From NCBI GenBank assembly GCA_002840845.1, contig PHCS01000001.1, positions 1 through 64,000 of the forward strand: 64,000 nt of DNA, given 5' to 3'. Of this stretch, positions 1 through 64,000 are shown in pieces (the first letter of the stretch is position 1; the number at the start of each line of letters is the position of its first letter). The translations under genes were made by a program, and so were the position numbers. Below the pieces are notes generated by a model that saw only the letters and a list, made by a program, of their open reading frames with translations, ran no database searches and was not told where the DNA came from. This DNA is from Betaproteobacteria bacterium HGW-Betaproteobacteria-14. Its GTDB lineage: Bacteria; Pseudomonadota; Gammaproteobacteria; Burkholderiales; Rhodocyclaceae.

Positions 1-39
1 CTTGCGTCCAGGATTAACCTTCTCGATTTCCTTTCCCAT
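1..39 (-). CDS. N-terminus of a gene leaving the window (MGKEIEKVNPGRK...), function unknown
   Basis: Reverse complement of 1-39 reads ATGGGAAAGGAAATCGAGAAGGTTAATCCTGGACGCAAG, preceded by a purine-rich GGAGG Shine-Dalgarno-like sequence; truncated by the window edge. Confidence 0.5.
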   Translation of the reverse strand, partial: MGKEIEKVNPGRK

Positions 40-211
40 CGGACACCTCCGTCGGTATTGTCTACCTTCAAATGTGTCTGGAAAAGCCGGGCTAGCTCAC
101 TCCGGTACCTGATGACACTATGTGTTGCATAAGCCACTGCCTTAGCGTGCAGTGCGAAGGAAATAGGCTAGCCCCGTTGGCAGTTGACCGACTCGATATA
201 TGGGTTAGTCG

Positions 212-1168
212 TCACAGCTCCTTGAAAAACACTGGAACTTGTGGCTTCACTTTGCTGGTGGTGACGCGAAGTGTCGCATACCCGCGCAGCAGAGATACTT
301 CAATATGGTCATGGTCAAGGTACGGCTTGAGTACTTTGCTGCGTCGCAGTTGCCGCATCGTTCTTTCCCATTGCTTCTGCCCTTCAATGACCTTGTTGCC
401 AATGAAATGGAATCCTCGCCCACTCTTTAAGAGCACGCCACCAATCGTGCTGAGGTGTGATTCAACAGACGCGTCCAGAGAGTCGATGTCCAGCATGATG
501 AGATGCGTTTCGCCATACTGGTCGAGGCGGCTATTGACGCCCACAACATAGTCATTTGGGCGAACTACATATAGGTTCTGCAGCATGCGTCGGGCTTGGG
601 TTTGGATGTTAATTACAGAAAAGATGTTCAAGTAGAACGGTGGTTGCCAGAGAGTCAGCCGCGTATGGTGCGCATAAGTCTTTGGGCAATAAATGTCATA
701 GGAGAAGTCTTTAATCTTAGTTGGATTGTCTGCAAGAATTGCCGCAAGAATCTCTGCCGTTTCGATTTTTGGCACACAGCGGAATGCATAGGCAACATAG
801 GCTTTCAGGACGCGGAGCTTCTGCTGAATAAGCTTCGGCTGAGGTGAATGAGTGACGTTGTAGTGGAACTGATTGCGAAGCTGGTGTAGTAGTTTATGTA
901 GTTCAACGTAGCGATGCGGGAAAACCTTTGACTTACCGTAAGTCTTGTGTAGTTGCACCTCGACGTTCTTGTGCGAAGGATTTGAGGTTAAGAACTTTGC
1001 GAGAAGCGCCTGCGATGCATAAAAGCAGCAGAAGTACATATGCACCAATGCTTCGCGGAACAACTCGCGCTCGACAAGCGTTTCAGATGCTTCTAGCTCG
1101 GAGAGTGCAAGAGACAATCGCGTACTGGCGCGTCTTTTCTGTTTATGGGAGTAATCGAGCTTCAGCAT
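212..1168 (-). CDS. HEPN-like N-terminal domain plus C-terminal region with AEP primase-like motifs (putative)
   Basis: ORF 318 aa; N-terminal helical HEPN-like pattern (ALVHMYFCCFYASQALLAKF ... LRNQFHY); C-terminal LIMLDIDS, SGRGFHFIG and IEVSLLRGYATLRVTTSKVKP resemble AEP motifs I-III. Confidence 0.55.
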   Translation of the reverse strand: MLKLDYSHKQKRRASTRLSLALSELEASETLVERELFREALVHMYFCCFYASQALLAKFLTSNPSHKNVEVQLHKTYGKSKVFPHRYVELHKLLHQLRNQFHYNVTHSPQPKLIQQKLRVLKAYVAYAFRCVPKIETAEILAAILADNPTKIKDFSYDIYCPKTYAHHTRLTLWQPPFYLNIFSVINIQTQARRMLQNLYVVRPNDYVVGVNSRLDQYGETHLIMLDIDSLDASVESHLSTIGGVLLKSGRGFHFIGNKVIEGQKQWERTMRQLRRSKVLKPYLDHDHIEVSLLRGYATLRVTTSKVKPQVPVFFKEL

Positions 1169-1281
1169 GGGCGTAGATTGTGACTGCTAATAGTGTATGA
1201 GCCGCACGAGGCGCTGCAATAACGGGGCCAGCAAGTAACCTTGACAAGCGGAAAGCACGATGCACAGCATTGAAGGCACCA

Positions 1282-2349
1282 TCACATCTGCTCAACGTAG
1301 GCGGAGAAGTCGTCGAAATACTCCCAACGAGCTACCCCAACCTTCCGACGTTTGAACAACGTACGCCACTTAGACATTACAGCCGGATTCGGATCGATTA
1401 CCGTAACCCTCTTAAGGGTTCGATTTGAAAAATTTCCAAAAAGCGACCACGCAAGTCGATCCGCATCCGGCAAGGAGTATCCGCAAACAATGATCTCATC
1501 AGCTTCATGGAGGTACTCATATGCGACCGTCCACAAGTGCTGGAACAAACTGATGGAGGTAATTGGCTTCACCGGTAGTGGTGGAACCATGAGGGGGTAC
1601 ACGGCATCCTGTGGTGTCGGTGATCCGACTGAGGAGACCCAAACGGGCGACAACCAGATAGGACCTGAACCATCGGAAGTGCCGTTGATGATCTTCTCGA
1701 AATCTTCCTCCTTACAGCGCCAGTTCACCGAGCCATGCAGTTTAACTACCATCGGAAACGGGTGCTGACCGTCACGCCTTTCCACCGCATCGGGTGATTC
1801 CTTGATTCGGTCAAAATACGTCCTTGTGGGGCCAAACTTTGCAACGATGTGTCGATCAAGGAGATCATCATAGTTAAAAGTAACGATTCGGTCTGCGGAA
1901 GCAACATTCTCGGGCTCGAGATCTAGCTTTGTAGCAAACTTACGATAGATTGTTTTGCTGTTCTCCTTAGTGTGCCGCAGTGCATAGCACATCAGGTGCG
2001 TTAGGTGGCTTAACCATTCGAATACCTCTACGGAACCCTTACCGCGGCGGGGATGAATCGCTCGAATGAATTCCAGATGTCCAAGCTGCCGAATTACTGC
2101 CTGCTCTAGCCCCATCTGTTCGAAGGCCCCTTCGTCTTTCCACGACTCCATCACTAGGTCTCGCGACCGCGCTACCCAATGAGGTTTCGCTGGATTGAGT
2201 TCGCCGATTCTTTGGCAAAGACCAATATCAAGGGGTGCCGTCTTTGGAGTAATCGGAATTCGCAGCGAAGCGCTGTAGGATGCTCCAGCGCCGAGCACAA
2301 AGAGTCGTTTGACCTTTAGACGATTAGCCTTGCGCCGCACACTGGCCAC
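1282..2349 (-). CDS. SIR2-like family protein
   Basis: ORF 355 aa; LFVLGAGAS, VTFNYDDLLDRH, VVKLHGSVNW, IIVCGYSLPDAD motifs of SIR2-like proteins. Confidence 0.85.
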   Translation of the reverse strand: MASVRRKANRLKVKRLFVLGAGASYSASLRIPITPKTAPLDIGLCQRIGELNPAKPHWVARSRDLVMESWKDEGAFEQMGLEQAVIRQLGHLEFIRAIHPRRGKGSVEVFEWLSHLTHLMCYALRHTKENSKTIYRKFATKLDLEPENVASADRIVTFNYDDLLDRHIVAKFGPTRTYFDRIKESPDAVERRDGQHPFPMVVKLHGSVNWRCKEEDFEKIINGTSDGSGPIWLSPVWVSSVGSPTPQDAVYPLMVPPLPVKPITSISLFQHLWTVAYEYLHEADEIIVCGYSLPDADRLAWSLFGNFSNRTLKRVTVIDPNPAVMSKWRTLFKRRKVGVARWEYFDDFSAYVEQM

Positions 2350-2482: not shown

Positions 2483-3364
2483 GTGAACCAAGTTGCTGAG
2501 ACTGCATACTCCGGCATGCCCTCTACCCGAACCCTCCTCCTAACCACCCTCACCATGCTCGCCTTCTCCGGCAACTCGGTGCTGTGCCGCATTGCGCTGC
2601 GGGAGACAGGCATCGACGCGGCGAGCTTCACGACCATTCGGCTGGCGTCGGGGGCGGTGGTGCTGTGGCTGATCGTGCGCTTCTTTCGCCGTGCGCAGGC
2701 CGGCGGGGGCAGCTGGATGTCGGCGCTGATGCTGTTCGCCTACGCCGCCGGTTTTTCCTTCGCCTACCTGAGTCTCACCACGGCGACGGGCGCGCTGCTG
2801 CTCTTCGGCGCGGTGCAGGCGACGATGATTCTCTATGGCCTGTGGCGCGGCGAGCGCTTCGGCGCGTGGCAGCTCGTGGGCCTCGCCCTCGCGGTGGGCG
2901 GACTCGTCGGGCTGCTGCTGCCGGGGCTGTCGGCGCCGCCGCTCGCGGGCGCGGCGCTGATGCTGATGGCGGGGGCGGCGTGGGGCGTGTATTCGATCCG
3001 CGGCAAGGGGGCGGGCGATGCGACGCGCGTGACGGCGGGGAATTTCCTGCGCGCGGTGCCCTTTGCCGTGGTGCTGAGCCTGCTGCCGCTCGCCGACACG
3101 CGCCTGGATGCGGCGGGCGTTGGCTACGCGCTGGCCTCCGGGGCGATCACCTCCGGCCTCGGCTACGCCATCTGGTACACCGTGCTGCCGGCGCTGAAGG
3201 CGACGAGCGCGGCGACCGTGCAGCTCAGCGTGCCGGTGATCGCCGCGCTGGGCGGCATTGTTTTTCTCAATGAAGCGGTGACGCTGCGCTTCGTGCTGGC
3301 CTCGGTCGCCGTCCTCGGCGGCATCGCGCTGGTGATCCTCAGCGCGCCGTCCCGCAGGGGCTGA
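2483..3364 (+). CDS. DMT (EamA) family transporter
   Basis: ORF 293 aa, multiple TM segments in two EamA-like repeats. Confidence 0.85.
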   Translation: MNQVAETAYSGMPSTRTLLLTTLTMLAFSGNSVLCRIALRETGIDAASFTTIRLASGAVVLWLIVRFFRRAQAGGGSWMSALMLFAYAAGFSFAYLSLTTATGALLLFGAVQATMILYGLWRGERFGAWQLVGLALAVGGLVGLLLPGLSAPPLAGAALMLMAGAAWGVYSIRGKGAGDATRVTAGNFLRAVPFAVVLSLLPLADTRLDAAGVGYALASGAITSGLGYAIWYTVLPALKATSAATVQLSVPVIAALGGIVFLNEAVTLRFVLASVAVLGGIALVILSAPSRRG

Positions 3365-3480: not shown

Positions 3481-3759
3481 ATGATCAAAACCTTTCGCCA
3501 CAAGGGCCTTGAAGCGTTCTTCAAGACCGGCAGCAAGGCGGGGATCCAGGCCGTCCATGCGAAGCGGCTGCGGTTGCAACTGGCCGGGCTCGATGGGGCC
3601 GTATCTCCGCAGGGCATGAACCTGCCGGGTTGGCGGCTTCATCCGCTTACCGGCGATCTGGCTGACCATTGGGCCGTATGGGTCTGCGGCAACTGGCGCA
3701 TGACCTTTCGGTTCGAGGGCGTCGACGCAGTATTGATTGATTATCGGGATTACCACTGA
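3481..3759 (+). CDS. higB: HigB-type (RelE superfamily) toxin
   Basis: ORF 92 aa: MIKTFRHKGLEAFFKTG...RLRLQLAGLDGA...GWRLHPLTGDLADHWAVWVCGNWRMTFRFEG. Confidence 0.9.
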   Translation: MIKTFRHKGLEAFFKTGSKAGIQAVHAKRLRLQLAGLDGAVSPQGMNLPGWRLHPLTGDLADHWAVWVCGNWRMTFRFEGVDAVLIDYRDYH

Positions 3760-3761
3760 CC

Positions 3762-4061
3762 ATGACTCGAATGCACAATCCGCCCCACCCGGGCGAAGTA
3801 CTCAAGGATGGCGTGTTCTCGGAGGGCGCGGTGTCCGTCACGGAAGCCGCCGCTTCGCTCGGCGTGACGCGCGTGGCGCTGTCGCGCGTGTTGAACGCCC
3901 GTGCCGCCATCAGCGCCGAGATGGCGGTCCGCCTCGGCAAGTGGCTCGGTACGAGCGCCGAGGTGTGGATCAACATGCAGGCGCAGTACGACCTCTGGAA
4001 GGCTGAACAATCGCTCAAGCGCCAAGTGGCGAAAATCCCGCCGCTGAAGCGCGCAGCCTGA
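3762..4061 (+). CDS. higA: HigA-type HTH antitoxin
   Basis: ORF 99 aa: PPHPGEVLKDGVF...VTEAAASLGVTRVALSRVLNARAAISAEMAVRLGKWLGTSAEVWINMQAQYDLW. Confidence 0.92.
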   Translation: MTRMHNPPHPGEVLKDGVFSEGAVSVTEAAASLGVTRVALSRVLNARAAISAEMAVRLGKWLGTSAEVWINMQAQYDLWKAEQSLKRQVAKIPPLKRAA

Positions 4062-56651: not shown

Positions 56652-57647
56652 ATGTCATTTCTAGAGGGGAAATCGGTTTTGGTGACGGGGGCGACCGGCT
56701 CGTTCGGCAAGCGCTTCGTCAAGTCGGTGCTTGAGGAGCATAACCCTAAACGGTTGGCTGTTTTCAGCCGAGACGAGCTAAAGCAGTTTGAGATGCAGCA
56801 AGTTATCCAGGACCAAAGACTGCGCTATTTTCTAGGAGACGTGCGCGACAAGGAGCGCCTCTACCGGGCTTTCGATGGCGTTGAGGTGGTTATCCACGCA
56901 GCTGCGATGAAGCAGGTTCCCGCATCCGAGTACAACCCGATGGAGGCCATCAAGACCAACATCATCGGCGCGGAAAACGTCATCAATGTTTGCATCGACC
57001 AGGAGGTCAAGCACGTTATCGCGCTTTCGACCGACAAGGCGGCCAATCCTGCGAATCTGTACGGCGCCACAAAGCTTTGTTCGGACAAGCTGTTTATTGC
57101 AGCTAATACGCTATCCGGTCGCCATAGGACTCGTTTTTCTGTGGTTCGGTATGGCAACGTGATCGGCTCGCGTGGTAGCGTCATTCCCTTCTTCATGCAG
57201 AGACGCAAATCAGGTGTCCTCCCAATTACCGATCCGCGGATGACACGCTTTTGGATCACCTTGGGCCAAGGCGTCCAGTTTGTTCTGGATAGCCTCGAGC
57301 GCATGCATGGCGGTGAGGTATTTGTACCGAAAATCCCCAGCATGAACATCATGGATGTTGCCAAGGTTGTTGCGCCTGAATGTCGCACGGAGATTATCGG
57401 CATCAGACCGGGCGAGAAACTGCATGAGATCATGATCACGCCTGATGATGCTTGGAATACATTGGAATATTCGGATTACTACGTGATCCAACCTGCCACC
57501 CAGTGGTGGGATGCAAAGAAGTTCATCGCAGAGACCAACGGAAAGCTAGTACCGGAGGGATTTCAATACAGCAGCGACCGCAACGACATGTGGATGAAAA
57601 ATGAGGAATTGCATTTTTTGCTGGAGCGCGAGCAGGTGGAATTGTGA
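56652..57647 (+). CDS. pseB: UDP-N-acetylglucosamine 4,6-dehydratase (PseB-like)
   Basis: KSVLVTGATGSFGKRFVKSVLEEHNPKRLAVFSRDELKQFEMQQ ... PMEAIKTNIIGAENVINVCID. Confidence 0.93.
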   Translation: MSFLEGKSVLVTGATGSFGKRFVKSVLEEHNPKRLAVFSRDELKQFEMQQVIQDQRLRYFLGDVRDKERLYRAFDGVEVVIHAAAMKQVPASEYNPMEAIKTNIIGAENVINVCIDQEVKHVIALSTDKAANPANLYGATKLCSDKLFIAANTLSGRHRTRFSVVRYGNVIGSRGSVIPFFMQRRKSGVLPITDPRMTRFWITLGQGVQFVLDSLERMHGGEVFVPKIPSMNIMDVAKVVAPECRTEIIGIRPGEKLHEIMITPDDAWNTLEYSDYYVIQPATQWWDAKKFIAETNGKLVPEGFQYSSDRNDMWMKNEELHFLLEREQVEL

Positions 57648-58816
57648 TTCCTTACGGAAAGCACTTCCTGGACGAGGCGGATATTGCAGCCGTCGTTGAA
57701 GTCCTGAGGAGTGGATACCTAACTCAGGGCCCAAAAATTGCCGAGTTCGAAGCGGCTGTTGCCTCATATGTGGGAGCGCGATTTGCAGTAGCTGTTTCCA
57801 GTGGTACTGCAGGGCTGCATCTTGCTTGCATAGCAGCCGGTATTGTGAGGGGCGATATTGTAGTTACCTCGCCAATTACTTTTATCGCAAGCGCTAACTG
57901 TGCGCTATACATGGGTGCCCGCCCGGTTTTTGCAGACATTGACCCCGGCACGCTGAATTTGTCAGTTGAATCGCTGGAGGAAGCTAGTCGAAAGGAAGCG
58001 ACGATCAAGGCCGTGATACCGGTGCATTTTGCCGGACTGCCTTGTGACATGAACGCGATCAATGCCACCGCGGAAAAATGGGGGGCTGCGATTATCGAGG
58101 ATGCGGCCCACGCGTTTGGCGCCTCATATCCTGACGGAGGAAAGGTAGGCAATTGCGTAAATTCGCTGATGACGGTGTTTTCCTTTCATCCTGTAAAAGC
58201 TATTGCTGCTGGCGAAGGTGGCTTGATTACGACCAATGACGAAGCTACCTACAAACGACTATTGCGCTTGCGTAGCCATGGCATAAACAAGGGCGACGAT
58301 CCAATGTTGAATCCGGGTGCTGCGCAGGAAGACGGAGAGCCGAACCTTTGGTATTACGAAATGCAGGAACTGGGCTTCAACTATCGCATTACAGACATCC
58401 AATCGGCACTCGCACTGTCTCAGTTCGGCAAGCTAGATGCATTTCTTGAGCGACGAAAAGAGCTTGCGCTTCGCTACGATGCAGCCTTCGCCAGCATGGC
58501 TACGTTAAAACCCGCTCAGCCTGTTGGCCGAGACCGAAGCGCACATCATATTTACCCTGTTCGCATCGACTTCGCAAAAAGCGGACTTACCAGGACGCGG
58601 CTCATGCACGGTCTGCGTGAGAGAGACATTGGTACTCAGGTGCATTACATACCGGTATACCTGCAACCCTATTATCGGAATCTCGGATACAAGCCGGGCG
58701 CATGTCCGACTGCGGAAGCGTATTACCGCGAAGCACTCAGCCTGCCTCTCTACTATAGCCTTGCCAATAGCGACCAGGATAGGGTTGTCAGTGCCCTGAA
58801 CGAGCTGCTTCAATGA
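57644..58816 (+). CDS. pseC: DegT/DnrJ/EryC1 aminotransferase (PseC-like)
   Basis: IPYGKHFLDEADIAAVVEVLRSGYLTQGPKIAEFE ... FSFHPVKAIAAGEGGLITTND. Confidence 0.93.
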   Translation: MIPYGKHFLDEADIAAVVEVLRSGYLTQGPKIAEFEAAVASYVGARFAVAVSSGTAGLHLACIAAGIVRGDIVVTSPITFIASANCALYMGARPVFADIDPGTLNLSVESLEEASRKEATIKAVIPVHFAGLPCDMNAINATAEKWGAAIIEDAAHAFGASYPDGGKVGNCVNSLMTVFSFHPVKAIAAGEGGLITTNDEATYKRLLRLRSHGINKGDDPMLNPGAAQEDGEPNLWYYEMQELGFNYRITDIQSALALSQFGKLDAFLERRKELALRYDAAFASMATLKPAQPVGRDRSAHHIYPVRIDFAKSGLTRTRLMHGLRERDIGTQVHYIPVYLQPYYRNLGYKPGACPTAEAYYREALSLPLYYSLANSDQDRVVSALNELLQ

Positions 58817-59697
58817 AACTGGGTCTGGGAGCAGTTCAATTCGGTGCTGACTATGGCATCTCCAACGCAGGAGGGAAAGTGCCCCGGCAGGAGGTGGCAA
58901 GCGTGCTTGCCTACGCGGAGAGCACAGGAGTTGACGTGCTTGATACCGCAGCCGCGTACGGGGACAGCGAATCGGTACTGGGCAGCGTGCTCTGGCCGGA
59001 TCACCACTTTCGAGTGGTCACCAAAATCCCGGCTTTGGATCCAGCTCTGGATTCCATTCAATGTATCAGCGCGGTGCACGAAAGCCTGTATTCCTCGCTC
59101 AAGCGCTTGCGCATGAAATCTATCTATGGTGTTCTTTTGCATCGCGCGGCGGATGCGGCAGGAGCGAACGGGGCCCGGTTGTCCAAGGCGCTCCAGGAAC
59201 TCAAGCATGAAGGGCTTGCGCAGAAGATTGGCGTTTCCGTGTATGGCGCTGAAGAACTGGAAGAGGTGCTGGAGAATTTTGTGCCGGACCTGGTGCAACT
59301 GCCATCCAACGCCTTCGATCAACGCCTGCTGCGAAACGGCTGGTTGGCACGCCTTGCCGCTCTGGGAGTGGAAACCCACGTGCGCTCGGTATTTTTGCAG
59401 GGGCTCCTGCTTATGCCGGCTAGCCAGCGCCATAGCGCATTTGGTCACTACCGGAATGAGTTTGATCGTTTTGATCGGTTCTGTAATGAGTACAACCTGA
59501 CGCCACTTGAAGCCGCGCTTGGTTACGTGCGGCACCTTCCGGGCGAGGCGACAATTGTCGGCGTGACAAAACGGGCCGAGCTTGAGGAAATCGTTCGGGC
59601 AATGGAAGCCGGCAATGTGCCGCCGCTCGAAGCTTATGCTGCATTGGCATGCGACGATGTCGGGCTGGTCAACCCGTCAATGTGGCGACTGCAATAA
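58813..59697 (+). CDS. Aldo/keto reductase
   Basis: MKLGLGAVQFGADYGISNAGGKVPRQEVASVLAYAESTGVDVLDTAAAYGDSE. Confidence 0.9.
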   Translation: MKLGLGAVQFGADYGISNAGGKVPRQEVASVLAYAESTGVDVLDTAAAYGDSESVLGSVLWPDHHFRVVTKIPALDPALDSIQCISAVHESLYSSLKRLRMKSIYGVLLHRAADAAGANGARLSKALQELKHEGLAQKIGVSVYGAEELEEVLENFVPDLVQLPSNAFDQRLLRNGWLARLAALGVETHVRSVFLQGLLLMPASQRHSAFGHYRNEFDRFDRFCNEYNLTPLEAALGYVRHLPGEATIVGVTKRAELEEIVRAMEAGNVPPLEAYAALACDDVGLVNPSMWRLQ

Positions 59698-59716
59698 TAC
59701 CGAGGCAGGGGAACAT

Positions 59717-60733
59717 ATGGGAATTGAAATTATCGCGGAGCTCGCCCAGGGATACGAGGGAAAGCCGCATCAAGCCGCCGCATTGGTAGCGGCGGCAGCG
59801 GCTGCAGGCTCCGATGCCGCCAAGCTTCAGCTTGTTTATGCTTCCGAGCTCTGTGTGCCTGGCTACAAATACTACGATCTGTTCAAAACCCTGGAGATGC
59901 CTGATGCTGTATGGGACGATTTGGCAGAACTTGGCCGTCAAAAGAATATCGCCTTGCATCTGGACATTTTCGGGCGGCGCAGCCTGGCACTGGCGGAACG
60001 AATCTGCGCGGAAGCGATCAAGGTGCACGGCACCGACATGGCCAATGAAGGATTGCTTAATGATGTAGCGAGATCCTCTATTCCAAGAGTGCTCCTCGCT
60101 TGCGGTGGCGCGATGCGTGGAGAAATCGAGCGCGCATTGAAAATCCTTAACAGGAAGAAGCTGGTCCTTCTCTTCGGCTTTCAGGGCTATCCGACCCTGA
60201 ACGCCGCCAATCAGATTTCCCGCCTGCGCGAATATGCCCCACTTGTCGCAGCGTCAGACGGGGGGGTAGCCGTTGGGTTTGCCGATCACGCGCCGGTTGA
60301 TCATGCTTTGCGGTTCGCTGTCCCGGCGACGGCGATAGGGGCCGGAGCCACCGTCCTCGAGAAGCATTTGACCCTCGCACAAGTGATGCGGCTGGAAGAC
60401 CACGAAGCCGCACTGAATCCCGACGACTTCGCTGATTTCGTCGCCCTCATGCACTCGTGCGAGGAGGCGCTGGGCCCAGTCGCGAAAAATGCCGAGGATT
60501 TCGGCATGGATGCAACCGAAGTCGGCTACCGACGCATGGTGCGCAAGCATGTCGTGGCTGTTCGCCCATTGCCCGCCGGCACCGTGCTTATGCCCGAGGA
60601 TCTGGCATTGAAGCGCACCCCTGCAACCGAGGCCTTGGACGAAATTGCCGCAGCTTATGGCAAGCGTCTCACGAAGAGCATCGAAGCGGATCAGCCGATT
60701 ACCAGAGAAATGCTGACGGAGAACCGCCAATGA
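59717..60733 (+). CDS. NeuB/SpsE-like nonulosonic acid synthase with C-terminal SAF domain
   Basis: MGIEIIAELAQGYEGKPHQAAALVAAAAAAGSDAAKLQ ... FADHAPVDHALRFAVPATAIGAGATVLEKHLTL ... RKHVVAVRPLPAGTVLMPEDLALKR. Confidence 0.87.
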   Translation: MGIEIIAELAQGYEGKPHQAAALVAAAAAAGSDAAKLQLVYASELCVPGYKYYDLFKTLEMPDAVWDDLAELGRQKNIALHLDIFGRRSLALAERICAEAIKVHGTDMANEGLLNDVARSSIPRVLLACGGAMRGEIERALKILNRKKLVLLFGFQGYPTLNAANQISRLREYAPLVAASDGGVAVGFADHAPVDHALRFAVPATAIGAGATVLEKHLTLAQVMRLEDHEAALNPDDFADFVALMHSCEEALGPVAKNAEDFGMDATEVGYRRMVRKHVVAVRPLPAGTVLMPEDLALKRTPATEALDEIAAAYGKRLTKSIEADQPITREMLTENRQ

Positions 60734-61506
60734 ATCGCCGATTCGTCGCTGCGCTGGCTTGCCGGAATACCGGATCGCGATTGTACGGCAAGCCGCTTCA
60801 AAAGATCAATGATCGCGATACCATTCTTGACCAGATTATTCATGCCGTTCGAAGATTCCCGATCATCGACGAAATCGTGCTCGGCATTTCGGAGGGCGTG
60901 GCCAACCTGCCTTTCATCGATGTGGCCCACGCCCATGGCGTGAGTTACATACTGGGGGATCCGCAGGATGTGCTGAAGCGCCTCATACAATGTGGCCGTG
61001 CCGGGCGCGCCACCGACGTGTTCCGGGTTACCACCGAGTGCCCCTGGTTCGCTTACGATATGTTGCCCGGGCTTTGGCGGGCCCATGTGGAAAATGGCAA
61101 CGACATCACAGTCTGTGACCGCCTGCCCGAAGGGCTGAATTTCGAAATCTACACCCTTGATGCATTGGAGCGCGCCCATGAGCGCGGCTCCAGCAGGGAC
61201 CGCTCCGAGTTCTGCTCGAACTACTCGCGCACACATCCCGAGGAGTTCAAGGCCCAGGTGTATCTGCCGCCCGAAAGCTGGCGACGCATGGATTTGCGCG
61301 TGACGGTCGACTATCCAGAAGATCTGATCATTGCCCGCGAAATTGCACGGCAGTTCGCGGACAAAATGCCTCTCGTCGGAACGGATGACATAGTGAGATA
61401 CCTGGATAGCCGAACAGACCTCTGCGCGCTTATCAATCCCTATGTGGACCCCAGCCCGTTATGGGATGTCTTCTCACATCAATTGGAATGGACGAGTCAT
61501 GCGTAG
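60730..61506 (+). CDS. SpsF-like cytidylyltransferase family protein
   Basis: MNRRFVAALACRNTGSRLYGKPLQKINDRDTILDQIIHAVRRFPIIDEIVLGIS. Confidence 0.75.
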   Translation: MNRRFVAALACRNTGSRLYGKPLQKINDRDTILDQIIHAVRRFPIIDEIVLGISEGVANLPFIDVAHAHGVSYILGDPQDVLKRLIQCGRAGRATDVFRVTTECPWFAYDMLPGLWRAHVENGNDITVCDRLPEGLNFEIYTLDALERAHERGSSRDRSEFCSNYSRTHPEEFKAQVYLPPESWRRMDLRVTVDYPEDLIIAREIARQFADKMPLVGTDDIVRYLDSRTDLCALINPYVDPSPLWDVFSHQLEWTSHA

Positions 61507-62827
61507 GATCACGAACTTTGCCAATTCCAGGGATTTCACAATACGCATTCACGATCTTATTCCTGGCGGTGCGCACACGTATTCAAAGGGTGACGATCAG
61601 TTTCCGGCCAATGCACCCGCTGCCATTGCGCATGGCAAGGGCGCGCGAGTTTGGGATCTCGACGGCAACGAGTACATCGACTGCAGCATGGGCCTGACTT
61701 CAGTGAGCATTGGGCACGGTTACGAACCCGTAGCGCGTGCCGTATGCGAGGCGGCTTTGCTGGGAACCAATTTTCAGCGACCGGCCACTCTAGAACTCGC
61801 CGCTGCCGAACGTTTCCTGGAAACCGTGCAGACGGGCGACATGGTTAAGTTCGCCAAGAACGGATCGACGGTAACTACCGCCGCGGTCAAGCTGGCACGT
61901 GCCTACACGGGGCGCAGTCGGGTGGCGCTTTGCCGCGAGCACAATTTCTTTAGCTACGACGATTGGTTTATCGTCACTACCCCCTGCGACCGAGGCATTC
62001 CCGAGCAGACGCGCTCGCTTACGGCCGGCTTCAGCTACAACGACATTGCGTCGGTTCAGTCCCTCTTCGAGCAGAAGAACCACAACATTGCCTGCCTCAT
62101 CATGGAGCCGGTCAAATTCGACCCTCCACAGGACGGATTCCTTCAAAAAGTGGCTGAGCTCTGTCGAGCCCACGGCGTCGTCTTCATCCTCGACGAAATG
62201 ATCTCGGGCTTCAAGTGGGGGCTGAAAGGCGCGCAGCATCACTTCGATGTGAAGCCCGATCTCTCCACTTGGGGCAAGGGCATCGCCAACGGTTTTTCCG
62301 CATGTGCCCTGACAGGACGAGCCGACATCATGGAGCTGGGCGGGATACGTAGCTCGGGCGCCGACAAGCTCTTTCTCATTTCCACTACGCATGGCGCCGA
62401 GACCATCGGCCTGGCGGCCATGATTGCCACCATCGACGAATTCGAGCGGCACGGCATGATCGAATCCAACTGGAAGAGGGGCGAGGACTTGCGCGGCAGG
62501 CTGAATAATGTGATCGCGCTTCACGGACTCGGCAACGCACTGGAAGTGAAGGGCGAAGCCTGCTTGCTTGCCCTAATATGTCGCAATGCGCAGGGCGTGC
62601 CGGATGATGCTTACCGGACGCTGATGATGCAGGAAATGATTGCTCGGGGTGTGCTGTTCCAGGGATTGTTCTACACAACCTGGTCGCACCAGGATGCGGA
62701 ACTCGACGAAATTGTTGCCGCCTTTGGTGAGTCGTGTGCCATCTATAGCCAGGCAATAGAAAGCGGATCGTGTAGTGAGCACCTGATAGGCCCGCCAGCG
62801 AGACCTGTATTCCGCAAGAGGATTTGA
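61499..62827 (+). CDS. Class III (glutamate-1-semialdehyde aminomutase-like) aminotransferase
   Basis: LIPGGAHTYSKGDDQFP, VWDLDGNEYIDCSMGL, FKWGLKGAQHHFDVKPDLSTWGKGIANGFS. Confidence 0.9.
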   Translation: MRRITNFANSRDFTIRIHDLIPGGAHTYSKGDDQFPANAPAAIAHGKGARVWDLDGNEYIDCSMGLTSVSIGHGYEPVARAVCEAALLGTNFQRPATLELAAAERFLETVQTGDMVKFAKNGSTVTTAAVKLARAYTGRSRVALCREHNFFSYDDWFIVTTPCDRGIPEQTRSLTAGFSYNDIASVQSLFEQKNHNIACLIMEPVKFDPPQDGFLQKVAELCRAHGVVFILDEMISGFKWGLKGAQHHFDVKPDLSTWGKGIANGFSACALTGRADIMELGGIRSSGADKLFLISTTHGAETIGLAAMIATIDEFERHGMIESNWKRGEDLRGRLNNVIALHGLGNALEVKGEACLLALICRNAQGVPDDAYRTLMMQEMIARGVLFQGLFYTTWSHQDAELDEIVAAFGESCAIYSQAIESGSCSEHLIGPPARPVFRKRI

Positions 62828-62935
62828 CATTGAATCAGTGCAAGATACTGAGGTGGGCGGCGAGCTTGTCGGCGACGGAGAAACCGACAAAGTTAACTAA
62901 GGGAAGCCTTTTCCAGTGAAGGGAAGCCTTTTCCA

Positions 62936-64000
62936 GTGTCAAACATCCTGATTCGCGTTGACGCGGCGATTGAGCTAGGCATGGGCCATGTTATGCGCTG
63001 CCTAACTCTGGCAGATTGCTTGCGCGCGGCGGGCGGGCAAATTGCTTTCTCCTGCAGAAGGTTGCCTGGGAATCTCTGTGATTTAATTGAAATGAAGGGC
63101 TACAAAGTACATCACATGGCTAATCCCGAGGATGGACTAGCTACCATTGACTGGCTGGACGATGCGGCGCAGACGAAAGCGGCTCTCGCAGATAGTGCTC
63201 GGACCGACTGGTTGATCGTGGATCACTATGGCCTCGACCGAAGCTGGGAATCCGCAATGCGTCCATTCGTCAGACGCATCATGGTTATCGACGACCTTGC
63301 TGACCGCCCGCATGACTGCGATGTGCTGCTGGATCAGAACTACTACAAAAATCTGGAGCACCGCTATGAAGGATTGGTGCCTGGACATTGCCTGAGGTTA
63401 TTGGGACCGACCTATGCGCTGCTGCGACCGGAGTTTTTTGAAGCTCGTCGCCATCTGCGCCAGCGGGATGGGCTCGTCAGGAGAATTCTGGTCTTTCTGG
63501 GCGGCGGCGATTCGCAGAACGTGACATCGAAGGTAATCGAGGCAATAGCCCTGACGGGCCACCCTGAAATCGCCCTAGATGTGGTGATCGGCTCCACCAA
63601 CCCTCATCATGAGCAGATCGCAGCACTTTGTTCGCTGAGAAGGAATGCACGTCTTCACATTCAAGTCGAAAATATGGCTGCCCTGATGGCGTCGGCCGAC
63701 CTCAGCATAGGCGCAGGTGGGGCGACCACTTGGGAGCGTTGCCTCCTCGGCCTGCCGACACTGACCGTAGTGTTTGCCGCCAATCAGGAGCAGACCACCA
63801 TCGACCTGGCTGATACCGGAGCGATACGCTACATCGGCTGGGCAGATAACGTGAGCATCTCGGAATTGGCCGAGGCCATCGATGATGCCATTTCCCGCCC
63901 TGAAGAGAACGTGGAGATGGGTCATCGGGCAATGCAAGTGATGAGCGACTTCGTGTATGACAGCCAGCTTCAGGCAGTTGCAGCCCTCCTGCAACGGACA
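62936..64000 (+). CDS. pseG: PseG/SpsG-like UDP-sugar hydrolase, open at window edge
   Basis: Manually translated from GTG 62936: VSNILIRVDAAIELGMGHVMRCLTLADCLRAAGGQIAFSCRRLPGN ... SIGAGGATTWERCLLGLPTLTVVFAANQ; not in the ORF track because no stop is reached. Confidence 0.88.
   Translation, partial: MSNILIRVDAAIELGMGHVMRCLTLADCLRAAGGQIAFSCRRLPGNLCDLIEMKGYKVHHMANPEDGLATIDWLDDAAQTKAALADSARTDWLIVDHYGLDRSWESAMRPFVRRIMVIDDLADRPHDCDVLLDQNYYKNLEHRYEGLVPGHCLRLLGPTYALLRPEFFEARRHLRQRDGLVRRILVFLGGGDSQNVTSKVIEAIALTGHPEIALDVVIGSTNPHHEQIAALCSLRRNARLHIQVENMAALMASADLSIGAGGATTWERCLLGLPTLTVVFAANQEQTTIDLADTGAIRYIGWADNVSISELAEAIDDAISRPEENVEMGHRAMQVMSDFVYDSQLQAVAALLQRT

Follow-up and report, generated by a model that had tools for sequence, protein, structure and literature searches.

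A SIR2-family gene and a probable HEPN-primase fusion gene in an apparent defence hotspot beside an EamA transporter gene of a Rhodocyclaceae-type genus

The window analysed here is the whole stretch of 64,000 nucleotides from contig PHCS01000001.1; it starts at the contig end, in an assembly of 104 contigs. The features at its left side, and the residues of interest in the two proteins encoded there, are as follows.

1-99, minus strand: left end of an IS3-family element, truncated where the contig stops
From 39: start of OrfA of the IS3-family element, MGKEIEKVNPGRK...
75-99: terminal inverted repeat of the IS3-family element, TGAGCTAGCCCGGCTTTTCCAGACA
212-1168, minus strand: HEPN-AEP fusion gene, 318 amino acids
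1169-1281: spacer of 113 bp between the two genes
1282-2349, minus strand: SIR2-family gene, 355 amino acids, or 352 from a GTG at 2340
2483-3364, plus strand: EamA transporter gene (Pfam EamA), right border of the hotspot
SIR2 protein, candidate NAD site: GAGAS at residues 20-24, the catalytic-type N159 in TFNYDD, H205 in KLHGSVNW, GYSLPDAD at residues 290-297
HEPN-AEP protein: HEPN at about residues 8-131, conserved linker at 152-180 (IKDFSYDIYCPKTYAHHTR), AEP-like domain at about 195-306

Both open reading frames lie where a sequence-only reading had placed them, on the minus strand with SIR2 first, and both are indeed richer in AT than the neighbouring DNA, with a GC content of 48.8% for HEPN-AEP and 51.6% for SIR2 against mostly 61-74% in the following kilobases. 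The motifs quoted in that reading are all present (GAGAS, TFNYDDLLDR, KLHGSVNW and GYSLPDAD in the first protein; RNQFHY, LDIDS, SGRGFHFI and IEVSLLRGYATLR in the second). They exceed chance, since the Pfam families SIR2_2 (E 9.7e-6), HEPN (E 3.5e-5) and AEP-like (E 6.6e-7) each score above their curated gathering cut-offs; NCBIfam and PHROGs gave no matches to either protein. Of the domains assigned from the motifs, SIR2 and HEPN are borne out by profile and structure matches, whereas AEP is only probable, with a profile match, motifs and a low-confidence fold. The true start of the SIR2 gene may be the GTG at 2340, for which an AGGAG is better spaced. No recognised promoter or terminator is present in the spacer.

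The first 99 bp of the window recur unchanged at the beginning of contig C63. Contig C25 of the same assembly begins with an OrfB-like carboxy-terminus (HQTLGYRTPVEFEDHVGA, then a stop), followed by an inverted repeat, 23 of whose 25 positions match the one at 75-99; the 3-bp flank is GAG at either side. The element was assigned to the IS3 family from its motif and ends rather than through a database match. The two contigs are thus probably joined through a single IS3-family element, the interior of which is absent from the assembly. As C25 carries the opposite border of the site, an FMN oxidoreductase gene, the order would be FMN oxidoreductase, thioesterase-like (DUF4442), a small open reading frame, IS3 element, HEPN-AEP, SIR2 and EamA. 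The open reading frame starting at 39 was weighed as a possible third, downstream gene of the system and rejected, as it looks like the OrfA of the element; its DNA had no match among plasmids. With the left side bounded by the element, the cassette consists of SIR2 and HEPN-AEP only.

On the right side, blastn similarity to those sister loci that extend to the EamA 5' end begins at 2515-2554. EamA itself is 91-94% identical among the sisters, and the DNA to the left of 2515 is unrelated and varies between congeners. The sister slots contain AriA and AriB of PARIS (L033; PADLOC E 3e-27 and 4e-19), an ApeA-like protein (L034; 2e-11), SocA_Panacea (L035) and AbiU/AIPR (L036; 5e-150 for AbiU). 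The oxidoreductase border is visible in L034, L035 and L036, whereas the sequences of L033 and L037 do not extend far enough. Judged from these sequences, the site is a chromosomal defence hotspot of a Rhodocyclaceae-type genus, and the PARIS, ApeA-like, AbiU and Panacea proteins in the sister slots strengthen a defence reading of the cassette. This is strong circumstantial evidence that the occupants of the slot in the window are also defence-related. The earlier proposal of a candidate defence cassette is partly supported: the site strengthens the defence role, but the pairing of the two genes, discussed below, is not supported.

Several further genes were observed around this site. In L037, positions 38-1291 (minus strand) encode a GHKL/HSP90-type ATPase of 417 amino acids, which has no PADLOC match and is a candidate defence gene of the hotspot. 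Beside the hotspot in the window, a HigB-like toxin gene is followed by a HigA-like helix-turn-helix antitoxin gene (3481-4061, plus strand), the HigA part being kept in sister L036. In the same sister genome (G867; L036, 10006-16920) EamA is duplicated, with a Tle1-like gene (a type VI secretion lipase) and companion genes between the copies. At the far end of the window (56652-64000) the GC content is lower and, by eye, there are PseB-, PseC-, PseI- and PseG-like open reading frames of a pseudaminic-acid-like sugar pathway.

The 355-residue protein is matched by the SIR2 models of PADLOC. Its profile finds defence SIR2 proteins in the PDB, first 8w9l (E 5e-11) and also 8yhx, 8j4u and KomC. 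In a Foldseek search with its structural model, which is of low confidence (pLDDT 48), the best matches are the SIR2 chains of SIR2-HerA (E 2.5e-4), with ThsA, DSR2 and KomBC ranking lower. Alignment A2 shows no change at any motif residue, and in A4 only A23, Y291 and P294 are each substituted once; GAGAS, N159, D161, KLHGSxNW and GYSxPxxD are kept across the relatives with few exceptions. With the GAGAS, Asn and His features in place, the protein belongs to the SIR2 family and is an unremarkable representative of a known kind, even if the fold model is of low confidence; the motifs and the model suggest that it has NADase activity. Its relatives, only 24-36% identical to it, are lone genes, found in a plasmid region of Vibrio that looks like an integron cassette array, on phage contigs and on a chromosome. 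The phage collection searched contained neither HEPN-AEP nor SIR2 relatives.

The amino-terminal half of the second protein, of the PF05168 type, matches AF0298 (2hsb) in Foldseek with an E-value of 8.6e-5 and a target TM-score of 0.82, and 9xbd in a PDB profile search (E 0.0012). The Pfam and structure matches assign it to the helical bundles of the HEPN superfamily. The RNQFHY sequence had been noted as lying near the expected HEPN motif. It has RX3H spacing (R98 to H102), His102 is replaced by Ser or Asp in the homologues, and the invariant pair R98...H107 has X8 spacing; no RX4-6H RNase motif is present. The variable His102 and the missing RX4-6H weaken a reading of the protein as a HEPN RNase. 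A HEPN match from the same genus, at L007, is part of an MNT-HEPN pair, and its MNT neighbour suggests kinship of HEPN-AEP with HEPN-MNT-type proteins.

For the carboxy-terminal half, the candidate AEP residues are Asp227 and Asp229 (DxD), Ser249 and His254 (sxH), and Asp285. Asp227, Asp229, His254 and Asp285 are invariant in all three HEPN-AEP proteins, which supports the DxD, sxH and h-D/E motifs recognised earlier; the fold prediction is less even. The model of this half has a beta-beta-alpha-beta-beta order around DxD and sxH, with block pLDDT values from 23 to 83, and there is no AEP among the Foldseek matches listed. The window protein scores 29.6 bits against AEP-like PF24387, with a cut-off of 27, while the homologues fall below it (25.7 and 19.1). 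A small independent profile of three sequences separated only one of the three HEPN-AEP proteins, the window protein, from shuffled sequences, and HEPN-AEP resembled AEP-like only weakly when their profiles were compared. When the dGTPase-linked AEP-like set was used for a PDB profile search, the matches were mainly to pentatricopeptide proteins and were deemed spurious. This half is probably an AEP, as judged from its sequence profile and motifs.

HEPN-AEP is a rare family. Two full-length homologues were found, in a Rhodocyclaceae MAG (60%; L015/L009) and a Planctomycetota MAG (54%; L016). Scans of 369 genomes from the class and 300 from the order yielded no further member, and none was found in plasmids or viral contigs; further HEPN matches, from Planctomycetota and from the family of the host, span the HEPN half only. 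Between HEPN and AEP, the linker at residues 152-180 (IKDFSYDIYCPKTYAHHTR...WQPPFYL) is nearly invariant. Compared with the homologues, the window gene differs at 0.62-0.69 of third codon positions versus 0.24-0.27 of second positions, showing it to be a real gene under protein-level selection. This bias, the invariant motif residues and the intact state of both open reading frames make it highly improbable that the two genes are ordinary cargo or decaying remnants left by an IS insertion, an explanation that would fit the flanking IS3-family element and the disrupted SIR2 relative in G939.

The surroundings of the homologues differ. In the Rhodocyclaceae genome, HEPN-AEP stands alone, inserted between livF and an MFS gene, and has a GC content of 44% against 62-65%. 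In the Planctomycetota genome, it adjoins a serine recombinase gene and lies upstream of RmuC and AAA_13, the defence candidate PDC-S06. That there are only two homologues, one of them without defence neighbours, speaks against a defence reading. HEPN-AEP might instead be a toxin-antitoxin-like or selfish module and SIR2 a lone effector, neither with a present anti-phage role; the HEPN half does belong to a HEPN/MNT-type Pfam family, and the Rhodocyclaceae copy stands alone among metabolic genes. Sister hotspots full of known defence genes speak against this alternative, which we consider improbable.

The sequence-only reading had paired the two genes and had named a lack of conserved co-occurrence as a refutation; on the data available, a small sample, no such co-occurrence is seen. 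A SIR2 gene adjoins HEPN-AEP in neither of the two homologues, and HEPN-AEP adjoins none of the ten SIR2 relatives; neither homologue genome gave a SIR2 match, and a tblastn search with the two window proteins found no locus among these that has both genes. Since the relatives occur independently, two separately mobile genes sharing a slot is the simplest reading. The two genes might still form one system, in which HEPN-AEP would sense phage nucleic acid or nucleotide changes and activate the SIR2 NADase, the role that HerA plays for SIR2 and an AEP-like protein perhaps plays for dGTPase. They share a strand, are 113 bp apart and are the only genes from the IS3 element to EamA; structurally, SIR2 is best matched by the SIR2 of a two-gene system, and no HerA is present here. 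AEP-like PF24387 was seen in one other context, next to dGTPase in three of three loci, and this tight pairing is a precedent for an AEP with a nucleotide-destroying effector. Given the co-occurrence counts and the homologue genomes without SIR2, we regard a single system as possible but on the unlikely side. A partnership confined to this lineage keeps a similar, minor likelihood from the sequence comparisons, because the SIR2 relatives are distant and the HEPN-AEP homologues only two. In the three PF24387 loci (L010, 6193-8138; L011, 7538-9513; L064, 2874-4618) the AEP-like gene is immediately downstream of the dGTPase-family gene, a possible unrecognised two-gene system.

We therefore favour, with some confidence, a horizontally acquired two-gene insert in a defence hotspot, most likely composed of two separate anti-phage modules, although with a common strand and only 113 bp between them the genes could also form an operon. 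The sequences show where the insert lies, what the hotspot contains, which domain families are present and that the relatives are independent; for activities, trigger and outcome we infer the following course. SIR2, to judge from its fold and residues probably an abortive-infection NADase, would be activated upon infection and hydrolyse NAD+ via Asn159 and His205, and the loss of NAD+ would halt the cell ahead of phage release. HEPN-AEP is probably self-contained, combining a HEPN bundle that lacks the conserved RNase motif with a primase-like nucleotidyltransferase core, the DxD-H-D set of which looks intact, and is possibly a one-chain parallel to HEPN-MNT pairs. As a guess, the AEP core may, upon infection, bind or extend nucleotides or nucleic acid, and HEPN may serve for dimerisation or as a regulated toxic surface. 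It is a rather unlikely extension that HEPN-AEP is an undescribed single-chain defence protein whose primase-polymerase core takes the place of an MNT enzyme on its own chain, either sensing infection or controlling HEPN, and that in this lineage the protein also gates the SIR2 NADase.

In a mostly open-access literature search, no paper was found that brings HEPN, archaeo-eukaryotic primase and SIR2 together, and none of relevance to a HEPN domain with a primase-polymerase. The main HEPN survey (PMC3710099) does not mention AEP. The HEPN-AEP fusion is a new element as far as the searched literature goes, which is not proof of absence. If the reading is true, the fusion of a primase-like enzyme to HEPN at such a hotspot would link nucleic-acid or nucleotide sensing to growth arrest in a new way. 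As AEP-like domains also adjoin dGTPases, the logic of an AEP plus a nucleotide-destroying effector is directly testable, and the hotspot beside EamA is a place to seek more defence genes in this genus.

In the tested defining features, the SIR2 gene departs from SIR2-HerA, DSR and Thoeris, and the HEPN-AEP gene from HEPN RNases and HEPN-MNT. SIR2-HerA (Nezha) has a matching SIR2 core, in chains of similar size (about 380-430 residues), and provides the best structure and profile matches. However, identity in the structural alignment is about 12-16%, and no HerA ATPase gene adjoins, the neighbours being HEPN-AEP, the IS3 element and EamA. Lone SIR2 genes (PADLOC 'SIR2', from prophages and cassette arrays) resemble the window gene in being single genes of 360-490 residues with the same motifs in a solo context, but show the low identity given above and have no HEPN-AEP neighbour. 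DSR1 and DSR2 are proteins of about 1000 residues with an amino-terminal SIR2 domain, compared with 355 residues here, and Thoeris ThsA needs SLOG and a TIR partner, whereas here there is only SIR2_2 and no adjoining TIR gene. HEPN-MNT systems share the PF05168-type HEPN half, and the same-genus HEPN match lies in such a pair; unlike them, the insert has no MNT gene, a fused primase-like domain and no conserved RX4-6H. The PF24387 AEP-like proteins paired with dGTPase share the SG(R)xxH and D...GYxxLRxS motif block and the curated family match, but are lone AEP-like proteins with IDF in place of DxD, while the window protein has the domain fused to HEPN and keeps DxD. PARIS, ApeA and AbiU occupy the same hotspot in sister genomes, with different, non-homologous proteins.
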